Below are positions 56,785 to 63,995 of a stretch of 64,000 bases of DNA, one piece after another. Source of the DNA: Amycolatopsis solani (GTDB lineage: Bacteria; Actinomycetota; Actinomycetes; Mycobacteriales; Pseudonocardiaceae); assembly GCF_033441515.1 (NCBI RefSeq), contig NZ_JAWQJT010000004.1, positions 518,332-582,331 on the forward strand, written 5' to 3'. A model generated the notes under the pieces. It was not told the DNA's origin, did no database searches, and saw only the letters and a program-made list of their open reading frames with translations. The position numbers and the translations under genes are program-made. Position 1 is the stretch's first letter, and each line of letters begins with the position of its first letter.

Positions 56785-58566
56785 CTACTTCTTCTTGGCC
56801 GCCCGCTTCCGCTTCGGCGTGAACTCGGCCTTGTCCTTCTCCGCCGTGGCCAGCAGTTCCTCCGCGTGCGCCCGGCCGGTCTCGTTGTCCATCCCGGCGA
56901 GCATCCGGGCCAGCTCGCTGACCCGGTCGGTCTGGCTCAGGTTCTTGACGCCACTGCGCGTCACGCCGCCCTTGTGCCCCTTGTCCACCACCAGGTGCTG
57001 GTCGGCGAACGCCGCCACCTGCGGCAGGTGCGTCACCACCAGGACCTGGTGGGTGCGCGCCAGCCGCGCCAGCCGGCGCCCGATCTCGACCGCCGCCCGG
57101 CCGCCGACTCCGGCGTCGACCTCGTCGAACACCAGCGTCTGCACGGTGTCCGCGTGGGCCAGCACCACCTCGATCGCCAGCATCACCCGGGACAGCTCAC
57201 CGCCCGACGCCGCCTTGTGCACCGGCAGCGGCGGGGCGCCGTCATGCGCCCGCAGCAGCAGCTCGACGTCGTCGACGCCGTCCGCCCCCGCGTGCACCGC
57301 GCGGCCGTCGATGGTCAGCGCGTGCGTGTCACCGTGTTCGGCGGGACGCTGCTCGACCGTCACCTCGATCGCCGCCTGGCCCATCGCCAGGCCGGACAGC
57401 TCGCGGGTGATCTCCGCCGCCAGCTCGGCCGCCGCCTTCTCCCGCGCCGCCGACACCTCGGCGGCGTGCGCGGACAGCAGCAGCCCGAGCTCGTCGCGCC
57501 GCAGCGCCAGGCCGGCCAGTGCCTCCTCCGACGTGTCCATCGACTCCAGGCGGCGCCGGGCGTCGTCCGCCCAGGCCAGCACGCCGTCGACGTCCGCCGC
57601 GTACTTGCGGGTGAGCCGCTTGAGGTCGGCCTGGCGGGCCAAGACCTTCTCCAGCAGCGCCGGGTCGGCGTCCAGCGTCTCGACGTAGGTGCCGAGCTCG
57701 GCCCCGACGTCGGTGAGCAGCACCGACGCCTCCTCGAGCCGCGGCGCCAGCTCGCGCAGCACGGCGTCCTCGGACGTCGCCAACCGTCGCAGCGCCTCCG
57801 AGACCAGGCCCGCCGCGCCCGGGGCGTCCGGATCACCGTCGGGGGAACCGGAGACGGCGACGTGCGCTTCGGTCGCGGCCGCACGCAGCTCGTCGACCGC
57901 CGCCAGCCGCTTGATCTGCGCGGTGAGCTCGACGTCCTCGCCCGGCTCGGGCGCGACGGCGTCGATCTCGGCGAGCCCGTGCTTGAGCAGGTCGGCCTGC
58001 TGGGCCATCTCGCGCGACCGCGTCGACCGCTCGGTCAGCTCGGCGATCACCGCCAGCCACTCCGTGCGGACCTCCTGGTAGGCGCTCAGCGGCTTCGCCA
58101 CGGCGTCCCCGGCGAACCGGTCGATCACCGCGCGCTGCTCCGCCGGGCGCAGCAGCCGGAGCTGGTCGTTCTGCCCGTGCACCGCGATCAGCTGTTCGGA
58201 CAGCTCCGCGAGCACACCGACCGGCACGGACCGCCCGCCGAGGTGGGCGCGCGACCGCCCGTCGACAGCGACCGCCCGCAGTGCGATCACGCTGCCGTCC
58301 TCGTCCACGTCGGCGCCGGAATCGGCGACGATCCGCTCGGCGCCTTCGACGCCGGCGTAGGTGAACCGCCCTTCCACGAACGCCTTGAGCATCCCCGTCC
58401 GGACCTTGGACACCTCGGCGCGGCCCCCGGACAGCAGGTGCAGTCCGGTGACGACCATGGTCTTGCCCGCACCCGTCTCACCGGTCACGACGGTGAAGCC
58501 CGCGTGCAGTTCCAGCAGGGCGTCCTCGATGACTCCGAGGCCCTGGATGCGCATCTCGGCCAGCAC
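56785..58566 (-). CDS. recN: DNA repair protein RecN
   Basis: A 593-residue SMC-like ATPase that acts in double-strand break repair. The Walker A motif GETGAGKT is at about 29-36, central coiled coils follow, and the C-terminal head holds SGGELSRVMLA (signature) and LVFDEVDAGVGG (Walker B). The start is uncertain: a GTG at 58566 after AGGCGG gives VLAEMRIQGLGVIEDA, the usual RecN beginning, whereas an ATG 30 bp upstream adds ten residues. The tail is basic (KRKRAAKKK). Confidence 0.94.
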   Translation of the reverse strand: MLAEMRIQGLGVIEDALLELHAGFTVVTGETGAGKTMVVTGLHLLSGGRAEVSKVRTGMLKAFVEGRFTYAGVEGAERIVADSGADVDEDGSVIALRAVAVDGRSRAHLGGRSVPVGVLAELSEQLIAVHGQNDQLRLLRPAEQRAVIDRFAGDAVAKPLSAYQEVRTEWLAVIAELTERSTRSREMAQQADLLKHGLAEIDAVAPEPGEDVELTAQIKRLAAVDELRAAATEAHVAVSGSPDGDPDAPGAAGLVSEALRRLATSEDAVLRELAPRLEEASVLLTDVGAELGTYVETLDADPALLEKVLARQADLKRLTRKYAADVDGVLAWADDARRRLESMDTSEEALAGLALRRDELGLLLSAHAAEVSAAREKAAAELAAEITRELSGLAMGQAAIEVTVEQRPAEHGDTHALTIDGRAVHAGADGVDDVELLLRAHDGAPPLPVHKAASGGELSRVMLAIEVVLAHADTVQTLVFDEVDAGVGGRAAVEIGRRLARLARTHQVLVVTHLPQVAAFADQHLVVDKGHKGGVTRSGVKNLSQTDRVSELARMLAGMDNETGRAHAEELLATAEKDKAEFTPKRKRAAKKK

Positions 58567-58657
58567 GCCGCCTACCGTAGCGGCCACCACCGACACTCTG
58601 CGCGTGCGGGCACCCGGCGAGTCGCCGATATGTTCGAACGAAGCGCCGAGCGGCGGG

Positions 58658-59584
58658 TTACTCGCAGGGCCGCGCGTGCCGTTCGCGCCAGCTCTTCACC
58701 GGCAGCGAGAACTTCTGGACCAGCCGATCGGTGAACGGCCCGTCCCACAGCCGGACCAGCCGCACCGGCGTGGTGCCGCAGGTGACCCGCACCCGCGCCC
58801 CCGGCGGCAGGTCGACGTGCCGGGTCCCGTCGCAGGTCAGGACGGCCGACGAGCCGTCCGGGTCGATCCCGACGGTGATCACCGAGTCCCGCGAGACGAC
58901 CAGCGGCCGCGCGAACATCGCGTGCGCGTTGCTCGGCACGACCAGCAGCGCCTGGACGTCCGGCCAGATGATCGGGCCGCCCGCCGAGAACGCGTACGCC
59001 GTCGAACCGGTGGGTGTGGCGCAGAGCACACCGTCGCAGCCGAACGCCGACACCGGCCTGCCGTCGACCTCGATCAGCGCGTCGAGGACCCGCTCGCGGG
59101 TGCTCTTCTCGACGCTGGCTTCGTTGAGGGCCCAGGTTCGGGCGACCTCTTCGCCGCCGTGGGTGACCGTGACGTCGATGGTCATCCGCTCTTCGACCTG
59201 GTAGTCGCCGTCGACGACCCGCTGCACGGTGTCGGCCAGCGCGTCGGAGTCCGCCTCGGCGAGGAAGCCGACGCGCCCGAGGTTCACCCCCAGCACCGGC
59301 ACCCCGGCCGGACGGGCCAGCTCGGCCGCGCGCAGCAGCGTGCCGTCGCCACCGAGGACGAAGACCAGCTCGACGCCCGCGGCGGGGTTGTCGTCCGGGT
59401 CGACGACCGTGCAGGTCGCGCCGACTCCGTGCTCGTCGGGGTTGATCAGCGCGCAGACGTCGTGCTCGATCACCCGGATCCGGATGCCTGCCTTGGCGAA
59501 GCGCGCCGAAACCTCGCGCGCGGCCTCGCCCGTCGCGTCGCGATCGGGGTGCACCATGAGGAGAACTTCACGTTCGGTGGTCAT
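58658..59584 (-). CDS. nadK: NAD kinase
   Basis: A 308-residue NAD kinase (PpnK). The GGDG motif is in FVLGGDGTLLRAAE, and the second conserved block reads CATPTGSTAYAFSAGGPII. It makes NADP+ from NAD+ and ATP. The ATG at 59584 overlaps the tlyA stop (ATGA), giving the order tlyA-nadK-recN seen in mycobacteria. Confidence 0.96.
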   Translation of the reverse strand: MTTEREVLLMVHPDRDATGEAAREVSARFAKAGIRIRVIEHDVCALINPDEHGVGATCTVVDPDDNPAAGVELVFVLGGDGTLLRAAELARPAGVPVLGVNLGRVGFLAEADSDALADTVQRVVDGDYQVEERMTIDVTVTHGGEEVARTWALNEASVEKSTRERVLDALIEVDGRPVSAFGCDGVLCATPTGSTAYAFSAGGPIIWPDVQALLVVPSNAHAMFARPLVVSRDSVITVGIDPDGSSAVLTCDGTRHVDLPPGARVRVTCGTTPVRLVRLWDGPFTDRLVQKFSLPVKSWRERHARPCE

Positions 59585-60408
59585 GCGGGCCCTTCCTCGA
59601 CGGCGGTTCGGACGAGCCGCTCGGCCTCAGACCTGTCTACCGCGTCCACAGTGGACCCGGCCACGTGTTCTTTCTTCAGCCACACGAAGTACTCGACGTT
59701 CCCGGACGGCCCCGGCAGCGGGCTCGCGGTCACCCCGCGCAGGGCGAGCCCGAGCTTCGCGGCCTCGCCGATGACGGTGAGCACGGATTCGGCGCGCAGT
59801 TCCGGGTCGCGGACGACGCCACCGCTGCCGAGCCGGTCCTTGCCCACTTCGAACTGCGGCTTGACCATCGGCACCAGGTCGGCGCCTTCGCGCGCGCAGG
59901 CGGCGAGCGCGGGCAGCACGAGCTTGAGGGAGATGAACGAGAGGTCACCGACGACGACGTCGACCTGGCCGCCGAGGTCGTCGGGAGAGAGGTTGCGAAC
60001 ATTGGTGCGGTCCATGACCACTACACGTTCATCGGTGCGGATCCGCCAGTCGAGCAGGCCGCGGCCCACGTCGGCGGCGATCACGGTCGCGGCGCCGTTG
60101 CGCAGCAGGACGTCGGTGAAGCCACCGGTGGACGCACCGGCGTCGAGGCAGCGCTTGCCCTCGACGCTCAGCTCCGTGAACGCCTCGAGGGCGCCCAGCA
60201 GCTTGTGCGCGCCGCGGGAGGCCCAGCCGGCGTCGTCCTCGTCCTTCACGACGATCGGTGCGTCGTTCTCGACACCGGTGGCGGGCTTCGAGGCCACCAT
60301 GCCGCGCACGGTGACCTTGCCGCCGGTGATCAGGGCCGACGCCTGTTCGCGCGACCGGGCGAGGCCGCGCCGAACCAGTTCCGCGTCGAGGCGGGCCCGC
60401 TTGGGCAC
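59581..60408 (-). CDS. tlyA: TlyA family rRNA 2'-O-methyltransferase/hemolysin
   Basis: A 275-residue protein with an S4 RNA-binding domain (RARLDAELVRRGLARSREQA) followed by an FtsJ-like methyltransferase domain (LDAGASTGGFTDVLL for SAM binding; the K-D-K-E set includes VPMVKPQFE). It methylates ribose in 16S and 23S rRNA and in mycobacteria determines capreomycin sensitivity. GTG start at 60408. One copy of the TCCACAGTGGA palindrome lies in its coding sequence near 59645. Confidence 0.95.
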   Translation of the reverse strand: MPKRARLDAELVRRGLARSREQASALITGGKVTVRGMVASKPATGVENDAPIVVKDEDDAGWASRGAHKLLGALEAFTELSVEGKRCLDAGASTGGFTDVLLRNGAATVIAADVGRGLLDWRIRTDERVVVMDRTNVRNLSPDDLGGQVDVVVGDLSFISLKLVLPALAACAREGADLVPMVKPQFEVGKDRLGSGGVVRDPELRAESVLTVIGEAAKLGLALRGVTASPLPGPSGNVEYFVWLKKEHVAGSTVDAVDRSEAERLVRTAVEEGPA

Positions 60409-60413
60409 GCCGG

Positions 60414-60611
60414 TCAGACCTTGTCGATGCTGGACAGGGCGACGGTCAGCTCGGTGTGCACGGCGTCGAACCGCTCGACGTGCTCGGCGAGCGGCAACGC
60501 GTCCAGGTCGTCCAGCCCGGCTACGGCTTCGTCGATGCCGGCGCGCGGGTCGGTCTGCGGCGAGAACGAACCGGGCGGGGGGCCCGGGACGGGGTAGTGA
60601 TGATCCTGCAC
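60414..60611 (-). CDS. Small conserved protein upstream of tlyA
   Basis: A 65-residue acidic protein (GTG start) with a Pro-rich start and a helical remainder (DLDALPLAEHVERFDAVHTE). It sits 5 bp before tlyA, in the place of Rv1693. No domain is recognised. Its conservation in position supports it being a real gene. Confidence 0.75.
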   Translation of the reverse strand: MQDHHYPVPGPPPGSFSPQTDPRAGIDEAVAGLDDLDALPLAEHVERFDAVHTELTVALSSIDKV

Positions 60612-60628: not shown

Positions 60629-61594
60629 TCAGCCCAGCCGGGCCTTCGTGTCCTCGCCGAGTTCGGTGACACCGGTCTCCCAGGCCACGTGGCAGAGCGC
60701 GCGGAGCAGGTCCAGGTCGTCGCCGTCGCCGGTCGCTTCCAGGACGCCGTCGCGGGTGGTCACCGACCAGCCGGGGCGCGGCCCGATCTTGAGGTCCTCG
60801 GGCGGCTCGGTGAGCGCGGTGAGGTCCTTGGCCAGGTACGTCCCGCGTTCGGCCGGGACGGCCTCGATCAGCTGCCGCGGCGTCGCGACCCCGGAGAGCA
60901 CGACCAGCGAGTCGATGCCCGCGGCGACCGCACCTGCGATGTCGGTGTCGAGCCGGTCGCCGACGACCAGCGGCCGTTCCGCGCCCGCCGAGCGAGCGGC
61001 GGTCTCGAACAGCAGCGGCTGCGGCTTCCCGGCGACGAGCGGTTCGACATCAGTGGCGGTGCGCAGCGCGGCGACCATCGAGCCGTTGCCCGGCAGCAGG
61101 CCGCGCTCGCTGGGCAGGGTCGCGTCGACGTTGCAGGCGACCCACAGCGCACCCGCCCGGATGGCCAGGCAGGCTTCGGCGAGCGCGGCCCAGGTGTTGT
61201 CGGGCGAGTGGCCCTGGACGACCGCCTGGACGTCGTCACCGTTTTCCCGCACCGGCTTCAGCCCGGCCCCGGCGACCTCGGCGGCCAGCGATTCGGTGCC
61301 GACGACCAGGACCTCGGCCCCGGGCTCGAGCCGGTCCTTGAGCAGCACGACGCCGGCCTGGGCGCTGGTGTGCACCTCGTCGGTCCCGGCGGGCATGCCG
61401 AGGCCGGTGAGGTGCGCGACGACCTCGCCGGGCGCCTTGGAGGCGTTGTTCGTGACGTAGCGGACGGGTGTGCCGTGCTCGCGGACCGCACGGACCGTCT
61501 CCGGAGCGCCCGGGATCACCCGGGAGCCGTGGTAGACGGTGCCGTCGAGGTCGAACAGGACGGCGTCGTAGGCCGCGAGCAAGGCGTCACTCAT
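60629..61594 (-). CDS. HAD-superfamily IIA hydrolase
   Basis: A 321-residue HAD-IIA phosphatase. Motif I is FDLDGTVYHGSRVIPGA (nucleophile Asp first), the cap-domain region TNNASKAPGEVVAHLTGLG follows, the Lys motif is VAGKPQPLLFE and the last acidic motif VVGDRLDTDIAGA. It is probably a phosphatase for glycerol-phosphate-like or nucleotide substrates. The ATG at 61594 lies 8 bp inside the end of the TPR gene, so translation is coupled; longer frames are shadows of that gene. Confidence 0.92.
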   Translation of the reverse strand: MSDALLAAYDAVLFDLDGTVYHGSRVIPGAPETVRAVREHGTPVRYVTNNASKAPGEVVAHLTGLGMPAGTDEVHTSAQAGVVLLKDRLEPGAEVLVVGTESLAAEVAGAGLKPVRENGDDVQAVVQGHSPDNTWAALAEACLAIRAGALWVACNVDATLPSERGLLPGNGSMVAALRTATDVEPLVAGKPQPLLFETAARSAGAERPLVVGDRLDTDIAGAVAAGIDSLVVLSGVATPRQLIEAVPAERGTYLAKDLTALTEPPEDLKIGPRPGWSVTTRDGVLEATGDGDDLDLLRALCHVAWETGVTELGEDTKARLG

Positions 61595-63779
61595 CGGTGT
61601 CTTCGGTGTCCTTTTCTTCGGCGGCCTGGTTTTCGGCGGCCTGGTCCTTCGGCCCGTTCGCGAGGTCGGCGGCCCGCTCGGCGGCGTCGGTCTCGTCGTC
61701 CTCGTCGGCCTCGGCCGAGTTGAGGAACCACCGCACGGCCTCGTCCGCACGCCCGGCGGCCGCGAGGTTGTCGGCGTAGGCGTAGAAGAGGCGAGCGCTC
61801 CACGGGTCGCGCTTCTCGGCTTTGAGGTCGTCACCCTGCAGCGAGACGACGGCGGCGTCGAGCTGCCCGAGATCCCGCCGCGCCCCGGCGGCGACGATCG
61901 CGAGCTCGACCTGAACGGCCTTCGCCAGCTTCGCGGTGTCGACCTCCTTCGCCAGGTCGAGCGCCCGCTCCGGCCGGCCCAGCGCCCGCTCGGCGTCGGC
62001 GATGATGGCGATGTGGTCGTCGGTGCGCGTCATCCGCCGGACGGCCCGCAGCTCGGAGAGGGCTTCGGACCAGTTGCCGGCGTGGTAAGCGACGAGCCCG
62101 AGCGCCTCACGGACGATCGGCACGCGCGAGGCCTTGGCCTTGGCGTACTTGGCGTGTTCGAGCGCGGCCTCGGGATCGCTGTCGATCAGCCCCCCGGCGG
62201 CGACGAGGTGCTTCCCGACGGTCTCGGCCAGCCCCTTCGGCAAGGTCCTCAGCTCGCGGCGGGCATCCTCGTCGAGGTCGGAGAACTCGATGTCTTCGGG
62301 CAGCTCGGGCGCCTCGAGGAGCTCCTTGGCCAGCGCCTCGTCATCGAGCGCGGTCCCGACCCGCGGCCGCGACTCCCGCCGCACAGGCCGCTCTTCCCAC
62401 CGCGGCTTGCGGTCGCCGTGGGCCGCCTTGCCCTGCGGGCGCCCGGCCCGATCGTCGGAGCCGCGGCTGTCGGAACGCCCGGCGCTGTCCGAGTACCGGC
62501 TGCCACTCCCGCGACGGTCATCGGAGTCACGGTTGCGGTAGCCACCGGTGCTCGGCCGATCGGAATCGCGGCCACTGCCACGCCGGTCGTCACGCCCACC
62601 GGAGTCGCGGTTGCTGTAGCTAGTGCTCGGCCGGCCGCTGGAGCCACCACTGCGGCGGTCGTCGCGTCCGCCGGAGTCCCGGTTGCTGTAGCTGCCGCTG
62701 CTCGGCCGGCCGGAATCGCGGTTGTACCCACCACCGCGCCGGTCGTCGCTCCCGGCGGAGTCGCGCTTGTTGTAGCTGCCGCCAGTGCGACGGTCATCGC
62801 CCCCGCCGCTCCGGCGATCGTCACGCCCGCCGGAGTCGCGGTTGTCCCCGCCGCCGCTCGGACGCCCGGAGTCGCGGGAGCCGTAGCTGCCACTGCGACG
62901 ATCGTCGCGGTCACCGGTGCTGCGGTTGCTGTAGCTGCCGCTGCTCGGCCGGCCGGAATCGCGGTTGTACCCACCACCACTACGGCGGTCGTCGCGCCCA
63001 CCGGAATCGCGGCTGCTGCTGTAACCGCCGCCGCTACGACGGTCATCGCGTCCACCGGAGTCGCGGTTGTTGTACCCACCGCCACTACGGCGGTCATCGC
63101 GCCCACCGGAATCGCGGCTGCCGCTGTAACCGCCGCCGCGGCGGTCGTCGCGCCCGCCAGAATCGCGGTTGCTGTACCCACCGCCGCTACGACGGTCATC
63201 GCGCCCACCGAAGTCGCGGTTGCCGAAACTCCCGCTACGACGGTCGTCACGGTCACCGGTACTGCGGCTGCCATAGCCACCGCCACCCGAGCGGTTACCG
63301 GAATCGCGATTGCCGTAACCCCCACTACGACGGTCGTCACGGTCACCGGTACTGCGGCCGCCATAGCCACCGCCACCCGAGCGGCTGCCGGAATCCCGGC
63401 TGCCGTAACCCCCGCCGCGACGGTCGTCGCGGTCACCGGTGCTGCGATTGCCGTAGCCACCGCCGCTCGGCCGGCTGCCGCGGCGGTCGTCGCGGTCGTT
63501 GAAGTTCCGGCCGCCGTCGCGGCTCTGACCTGCGCCGCTTCCGCGCTGGTCGCGGTCACGGGGACCGTCGCCGCCGCGGAAGGGCTTGCCGCCGCCACGG
63601 ACTCCGTGGTCGTCGCGGCGAGGCCGGCCCTGGTGTCCGCCGTCGCGGCCGCCGCGGTCCTGGCGCGCACCGCGCCGGTCTCCCCGGGGTGCGTCCGACC
63701 GGTCCCGGGAGCCTTCGTCCCGGCGTGCCGATCGGCCGGACCCATCATCGCTTGAGTCTCGTCGACCGAACTCGGACAC
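61587..63779 (-). CDS. TPR protein with a long RGG/GY/DDRR-repeat disordered domain
   Basis: About 730 residues. The C-terminal 255 (from RPRVGTALDDEALAKELLEA) form a TPR-like helical domain equivalent to the short mycobacterial Rv1691. The first 470 or so residues are disordered: an Arg/Asp/Gly-rich lead, then about sixteen imperfect repeats of the type GGGYSNRDSGGRDDRRS, with Tyr in Gly-rich contexts, as in RNA-binding FUS-like domains. An ATG at 63794 has no ribosome site, whereas a GTG at 63779 follows AGGAGG; the GTG is preferred. It stands next to the rRNA operon and first in the tlyA-nadK-recN run. Function unknown. Confidence 0.9.
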   Translation of the reverse strand: MSEFGRRDSSDDGSGRSARRDEGSRDRSDAPRGDRRGARQDRGGRDGGHQGRPRRDDHGVRGGGKPFRGGDGPRDRDQRGSGAGQSRDGGRNFNDRDDRRGSRPSGGGYGNRSTGDRDDRRGGGYGSRDSGSRSGGGGYGGRSTGDRDDRRSGGYGNRDSGNRSGGGGYGSRSTGDRDDRRSGSFGNRDFGGRDDRRSGGGYSNRDSGGRDDRRGGGYSGSRDSGGRDDRRSGGGYNNRDSGGRDDRRSGGGYSSSRDSGGRDDRRSGGGYNRDSGRPSSGSYSNRSTGDRDDRRSGSYGSRDSGRPSGGGDNRDSGGRDDRRSGGGDDRRTGGSYNKRDSAGSDDRRGGGYNRDSGRPSSGSYSNRDSGGRDDRRSGGSSGRPSTSYSNRDSGGRDDRRGSGRDSDRPSTGGYRNRDSDDRRGSGSRYSDSAGRSDSRGSDDRAGRPQGKAAHGDRKPRWEERPVRRESRPRVGTALDDEALAKELLEAPELPEDIEFSDLDEDARRELRTLPKGLAETVGKHLVAAGGLIDSDPEAALEHAKYAKAKASRVPIVREALGLVAYHAGNWSEALSELRAVRRMTRTDDHIAIIADAERALGRPERALDLAKEVDTAKLAKAVQVELAIVAAGARRDLGQLDAAVVSLQGDDLKAEKRDPWSARLFYAYADNLAAAGRADEAVRWFLNSAEADEDDETDAAERAADLANGPKDQAAENQAAEEKDTEDTDE
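62400..63560 (-). repeat. In-frame coding repeats of the TPR gene
   Basis: Imperfect 45-60 bp repeats with the core TCGCGRCCRCCGG... on the plus strand, encoding RDSGGRDDRRSGGGY-like units. All are multiples of three bases and stay in frame. Likely prone to length change between strains. Confidence 0.8.
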
Positions 63780-63820
63780 CTGGCCTCCTGCCATGGAAAA
63801 AATCTTGTTCTGGACATACG

Positions 63821-63868
63821 CGTACGGCCCGCTAGGGCAGCCAACTGGCTATCCTAACGGGCCGTACG
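63821..63868 (-). terminator. rRNA operon terminator
   Basis: CGTACGGCCCG and CGGGCCGTACG arms with an inner TAGG/CCTA pair, 9 bp after the 5S 3' end on the minus strand. A run of six T lies about 13 bp further on. Confidence 0.8.
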
Positions 63869-63876
63869 GAAGGTAA

Positions 63877-63995
63877 GTTCGGCGGTGTCCTACTCTCCCA
63901 CAACCCTTCGGTTGCAGTACCATCGGCGCTGTCAAGCTTAGCTTCCGGGTTCGGAATGGGACCGGGCGTTTCCCTGACGCTAAAACCACCGAAAC
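63877..63995 (-). rRNA. rrf: 5S ribosomal RNA
   Basis: About 119 nt. Read on the minus strand, it starts GTTTCGGTGGTTTTAGCG, contains the universal GGTCCCATTCCGAACCCGGA stretch and CGCCGATGGTACTGC, and ends CACCGCCGAAC, which pairs with the start. The 23S gene should lie just beyond the right edge. Confidence 0.95.

Follow-up and report, generated by a model that had tools for sequence, protein, structure and literature searches.

In most sampled Actinomycetes, a gene for a tetratricopeptide repeat (TPR) protein with an arginine-rich, predicted disordered arm lies directly behind a ribosomal RNA (rRNA) operon, and this linkage is class-wide and unexpectedly strong. The representative described here comes from Amycolatopsis solani (RefSeq assembly GCF_033441515.1, contig NZ_JAWQJT010000004.1, positions 518,332 to 582,331 of the forward strand), a stretch of 64,000 nucleotides that is referred to below as the window. 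The protein is real, conserved, and unnamed. A preliminary description of this DNA had likened it to FUS and had remarked on the neighboring 5S rRNA gene; the comparison with FUS is loose, while the rRNA link, now traced class-wide in other genomes, is better supported than it could be from one sequence. The best single reading, which is held tentatively, is that the protein may be a class-wide factor in rRNA synthesis and ribosome assembly. The gene and its parts occupy the following positions in the window:

61587..63779, minus strand: whole TPR-arm gene, 730 residues (disordered Arg-rich arm, TPR domain, and short acidic tail), present in one copy in its own genome.
63784..63789, minus strand: ribosome-binding site AGGAGG, 5′ of the GTG start (sequence reading).
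62364..63779, minus strand: disordered arm, residues 1–472, with DDRR and GGGY blocks (composition, charge-hydropathy, and a structure-prediction confidence below 50).
62953..63464, minus strand: tandem DNA arrays inside the arm, with 51-bp units at 62953–63223 and 90-bp units at 63207–63464.
61653..62327, minus strand: TPR domain, residues 485–709, conserved class-wide (fold prediction and sequence comparison).
61590..61652, minus strand: acidic C-terminal tail, residues 710–730, short here and longer in many relatives (composition and charge-hydropathy).

The open frame runs from the GTG at 63779 to 61587, and an in-frame ATG at 63794 is an alternative upstream start. The spacer between the 5S rRNA gene and the GTG is 97 bp. 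In other genomes, linkage was scored when a 5S rRNA gene, detected by a 5S profile run on the fetched loci, lay upstream on the same strand at a distance of at most 450 bp. The loci are related and not independent, and gap and arm lengths are approximate wherever the start lacks a clear ribosome-binding site. In the window's own family, 55 of 57 evaluable loci are linked, and the two misses (L063 and L088) have a frame cut by a contig end; 60 stretches were fetched, one of which (L087, an upstream stretch) lacks the TPR domain, and 57 of the remaining 59 were evaluable. Across the other families of the class, linkage is found in 70 of 76 evaluable loci and in 34 of 34 families, a tally that covers the families among the match rows listed. 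The 80 loci behind it were hand-picked from match rows, one to several per family and with preference for long contigs (two genomes contribute two loci each), and four (L242, L262, L290, and L293) were left out as not evaluable. With one to six 5S genes per genome (30 genomes searched), the chance of such linkage is approximately 0.0005 (about 1 in 2000), assuming about 920 genes per Mb. Further class loci outside this tally (L331–L344, with 1.5-kb flanks) have the 5S gene in 10 of 14 cases, and L313 is without it. Among 80 named records, mostly from the own family and hence not independent of the family count, 58 of 64 evaluable are linked; L191, L198, and L206, where the 5S gene lies 1.2–2.1 kb before the domain, are counted as misses, and 16 records are cut at contig ends. 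One record of note is L174, titled Rhodococcus rhodnii, which has 70% identity to the query and shares its layout with the Kibdelosporangium loci L172, L177, and L178; it is perhaps mislabeled. Outside the class, a 5S gene accompanies 7 of 17 short loci; L373, L374, and L376 have one immediately upstream, and L375 does not.

The typical gene order is tyrS, 16S-23S-5S, TPR, HAD, and tlyA. Six of the 32 long loci examined have masked stretches; all 24 unmasked linked loci show a complete 16S-23S-5S operon before the TPR gene. The upstream side carries tyrS in 21 of the 32 (three representatives pass TIGR00234). On the downstream side, over about 4 kb, 62 of 80 class loci have the HAD gene and 31 have tlyA. 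Two full TPR copies occur in G276, G322, and G268 (L260, L261, L279, L280, L371, and L372), and every copy stands directly behind a 5S gene, including L372, a duplicate without tyrS; in two other genomes the second TPR match is partial. In G370 and G294, tlyA has come to lie 3–4 kb behind the other rRNA operon, and the TPR gene has kept its place next to its own operon, together with tyrS. Within G150 (L225/L380) and G160 (L248/L392), the stretches downstream of linked and unlinked 5S genes are near-identical, which suggests gene conversion extending past the 5S gene.

The TPR domain is present in 148 of 150 genomes of the family, 120 of 120 of the order, and 187 of 197 (~95%) of the class; a phylum sample has it in 60 of 149 genomes, 13 of these 60 within the window's own class. 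A strain-specific domain is thereby ruled out, and the same holds for a repeat domain confined to this strain, in that the fetched family members with intact frames have arms; the one exception is L239, with only 12 residues by the start used. The gene is retained in genomes of 1.3–1.4 Mb, with the 5S gene 92–108 bp upstream (L276 and L277). Three single-contig genomes of 1.2 Mb from one genus (G337, G361, and G424) keep tlyA and are without the TPR gene, and thus the gene can be lost.

The arm of the window protein comprises residues 1–472, in line with the roughly 470 residues of Arg-Gly-Tyr-Ser-Asp repeats first described, and contains 119 Gly (25.2%), 108 Arg (22.9%), 79 Ser (16.7%), 75 Asp (15.9%), and 18 Tyr (3.8%). 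It carries 16 DDRR and 10 GGGY motifs, and 12 of the 18 Tyr directly follow Gly. It has 28 DR and 37 RD dipeptides, versus only 13 RG; RGG occurs six times here and 0–39 times among own-family members. The arm is predicted to be disordered, as had been proposed: in the full-length AlphaFold2 model, residues 1–449 and 451–471 are all coil with a predicted local distance difference test (pLDDT) score below 50, and the charge-hydropathy boundary separates a disordered arm from an ordered TPR part. Base shuffles of the arm DNA yield 2.8% Asp, 0.8% Tyr, 13.6% Ala, and 11.4% Pro, versus 15.9, 3.8, 1.9, and 3.0% observed, and the frame stays open in 1 of 500 shuffles; GC content alone is therefore an insufficient explanation. 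Together with the conservation across family and class, these shuffles rule out a spurious or purely GC-driven frame. No second arm-like region was found in the own genome (search at E ≤ 0.001). Antisense to the arm, on the plus strand, a 580-residue open frame at 62013–63755 reads as Val/Ala repeats and probably just results from the codons of the arm.

Across the class, arm composition is conserved and length is variable, as anticipated for the own family. In 134 loci from 35 families, arms range from 36 to 887 residues (about 25-fold); contig-cut frames, L003, L005, and L239 (arm below 30 residues) were left out of the composition test. Relative to shuffled DNA, Arg is higher in 126 loci and Asp in 133, with Ala not raised in 127 and Leu not raised in 133. 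The arm is net positive in 131 of 134 loci, with a median charged fraction of 0.44 and a median net charge of +0.09. With increasing length, aromatics increase (rho 0.73; 0.69 for the medians of 35 families) and net charge declines (rho −0.78; −0.74 for the same medians), correlations that were sought after data inspection and on related sequences. At the other end of the protein, 33 of 80 class loci encode a tail of at least 40 residues after the TPR domain, acidic in every case.

The TPR assignment of the preliminary description stands. Modeled alone, the domain reaches a mean pLDDT of 95.6 (mostly above 90 in the full-length model) and forms a predicted superhelix of antiparallel helix pairs, the structural hallmark of TPRs, with matches to TPR structures. 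In Pfam, the window protein matches TPR models only, all below their cut-offs (20.9 bits versus 27), and at E up to 1 the full protein still gives TPR models only, with no RNA-recognition motif (RRM) or zinc-finger match; NCBIfam gives nothing near a cut-off, PADLOC gives no match, and a PDB sequence search gives only weak TPR/pentatricopeptide repeat matches. Pfam TPR models reach E ≤ 0.001 in up to 44 of 74 relatives. There are 764 database relatives, and the 120 listed are mostly unnamed, hypothetical, or TPR proteins. Two database relatives, P0087 and P0092, have Pfam domains of HAD hydrolases in addition, a layout suggestive of a TPR-HAD gene fusion.

The surroundings of the gene in the window are as follows:

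63877..63993, minus strand: 5S rRNA gene, the last gene of the upstream rRNA operon (rRNA search); the window and the contig end here.
63821..63868, minus strand: GC-rich hairpin in the 5S-gene spacer, of the ordinary rRNA-operon (rrn) terminator type (sequence reading).
60629..61594, minus strand: HAD-type hydrolase gene, overlapping the stop codon of the TPR-arm gene (open reading frame and domain matches).
60414..60611, minus strand: small open frame of 65 residues in the interval from HAD to tlyA (open frame only).
59581..60408, minus strand: tlyA, of the rRNA 2′-O-methyltransferase family (TIGR00478, 199.3 bits, cut-off 185.8).
58658..59584, minus strand: NAD kinase gene (open reading frame and domain match).
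56785..58596, minus strand: RecN-type gene (SMC_N model, RecF/RecN/SMC).

The five frames from HAD to RecN lie on the same strand downstream of the TPR-arm gene, and the run shared with tlyA that had been pointed out earlier is confirmed by strand and by the TIGR00478 score. This order matches the mycobacterial one, for which PMC3072309 gives the run lprJ, Rv1691, Rv1692, Rv1693, tlyA, ppnK, and recN, with Rv1691 annotated as a TPR protein. The likeness of the window protein to Rv1691 and its orthologue MSMEG_3754 is one of order and annotation (TPR, HAD, small frame, tlyA, NAD kinase, RecN). The claim that the mycobacterial counterpart has the short domain only appears not to hold: short relatives in genus g52 (family f7), presumably Mycobacterium, have arms of 36–81 residues, compared with 472 in the window protein.

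A promoter/terminator scan of the window locus returned no promoter-like site and one terminator-like site on the opposite strand. In 114 of 122 gaps between the 5S and TPR genes a stem of 9 bp or more occurs, with a median start ~8 nt after the 5S gene. Behind each of 20 hand-picked unlinked 5S copies stands a hairpin equal in size and in the weakness of its T tail, and thus the spacer hairpin looks like an ordinary rrn terminator; a terminator that leaks more at the linked copy is unsupported, the 20 unlinked copies being alike. The motif TAnnnT follows the hairpin in 40 of 85 cases versus 36.5 expected, which is no enrichment. In 29 of 114 gaps, fewer than 35 nt are left from the hairpin to the start used, and such gaps would favor some read-through there, the choice of start being uncertain. 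In family f27 (L269, L270, L271, and L295), GAGAATG stands between hairpin and start in four of seven gaps and is perhaps the gene's own promoter.

The assignment to rRNA synthesis and ribosome assembly draws on the position behind the rRNA operon, the Arg-rich arm, the presence of tlyA in the same run, and a published RNA-polymerase pull-down. As the arm is Arg-rich and net positive, it would be expected to bind RNA; the gene position and the pull-down make rRNA its probable main target. The predicted unfolded arm may hold nascent pre-rRNA, while the TPR domain, through its groove, could dock a protein partner such as a processing, modification, or assembly factor. Long arms with Tyr or Phe might allow joint assemblies of the protein and rRNA, and arms of 36–60 residues may act as simple RNA clamps. 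A nucleolus-like condensate, in which the protein is made beside its target, the arm gathers nascent rRNA, the TPR domain recruits modification and assembly factors, and arm length tunes condensation, is a speculative and rather doubtful extension. According to PMC7092591, MSMEG_3754, given as the Rv1691 orthologue, is recovered in a pull-down of the RNA-polymerase beta subunit after cross-linking (high-confidence list, 214/275). Among the matches listed by a literature search, no account of the 5S-TPR linkage or of the arm was found, and a paper on the Streptomyces nucleoid (PMC3784963) makes no mention of TPR or tetratricopeptide.

Several points weigh against this assignment. The TPR is a generic fold, and the ordinary rrn-type hairpin between the 5S gene and the TPR gene speaks against tight coupling, although co-transcription may still occur. 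Ten of 197 class genomes are without the TPR gene even at E up to 1, and tlyA is kept in all ten; a partnership with TlyA by co-loss is thus unsupported. Six class loci miss the linkage, with no 5S gene in L237 and L299, a distance of 664 bp in L239, and distances of 2.4–3.3 kb in L266, L267, and L273. G191 has its single 5S gene elsewhere and carries tyrS, TPR, HAD, and tlyA together without an rRNA operon, the arrangement of locus L354. In two-operon mycobacteria, rrnB lies downstream of tyrS (PMC10218544 and PMC6089878); the G191 layout fits mycobacteria without rrnB, G191 being presumably a mycobacterium. Micrococcal nuclease and RNase A had been applied to the lysate of the pull-down, which lists 275 proteins (PMC7092591), so that the recovery is not specific, and MSMEG_3754 is also in a ClpC1 interactome table (PMC10433963).

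The protein could instead be a general scaffold for RNA polymerase, mRNA, or the degradosome, without preference for rRNA, its rrn neighborhood merely setting the expression level; arms rich in Arg show little sequence preference when they bind RNA. This seems rather unlikely: the missing co-loss with tlyA and the pull-down of the mycobacterial orthologue (PMC7092591) fit it, but the position behind rRNA is kept in all 34 evaluable families and by both copies in the three two-copy genomes. The gene might equally be where it is through inherited synteny without functional coupling, with the operon placed between tyrS and the TPR gene by descent and the protein serving elsewhere, for example in protein quality control with ClpC1. 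The retention of the upstream neighbor tyrS, the ordinary hairpin, the G191 locus, where the gene outlasts the operon, and the entry in the ClpC1 table (PMC10433963) all suit such a history, yet the duplicates also stand behind a 5S gene, once without tyrS (L372), and in G370 and G294 the TPR gene remains behind its own operon with tlyA behind the other; on balance, this too has a low probability.

For the arm itself, neutral low-complexity DNA expanding by slippage in GC-rich genomes is quite improbable. Tandem arrays are present and length varies widely, as slippage would have it, but the composition shifts in one direction in 35 families and aromatics increase with length. Codon positions in the arrays do not all point one way: the 90-bp array has third-position differences in 12 of 56 cases versus 4 and 5 at the other positions, an excess that argues against slippage, and in the 51-bp array third positions are just mildly more variable (32/73 versus 23/73 and 21/74), which is compatible with it.

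Among known systems, FUS/FET proteins likewise combine Gly-flanked Tyr and Arg within one disordered region. The label "FUS-like" does not fit, in that the window arm has no Gln-rich SYGQ domain (Gln 1.1%, Tyr 3.8%), few RGG (6, with 13 RG, in 472 residues), and no RRM or zinc-finger match. Nuclear-speckle proteins contain Arg-enriched mixed-charge domains, in which Arg is balanced by Asp/Glu and net charge is low. The window arm conforms to this pattern, with alternating Arg and Asp, a charged fraction of 0.41, and a net charge of +0.07, but has far more Gly and Ser, regular Tyr, and a bacterial TPR protein attached. An Arg-enriched mixed-charge domain with Gly-Tyr describes the arm better. 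RNase E bodies are formed by a bacterial condensate-forming RNA factor. The window protein resembles them and Bacteroides Rho (PMC10284900) in being a bacterial protein with a disordered arm and, presumptively, a relation to RNA; it has no catalytic or known RNA-binding domain, and condensation would be a conjecture for it.

A gene that is kept behind the rRNA operon class-wide, and that neither Pfam nor NCBIfam names, is a promising candidate for an overlooked actinobacterial ribosome-synthesis factor. The natural arms of 36–887 residues, with aromatics increasing with length, offer a ready series for asking whether bacteria gather rRNA in condensates.

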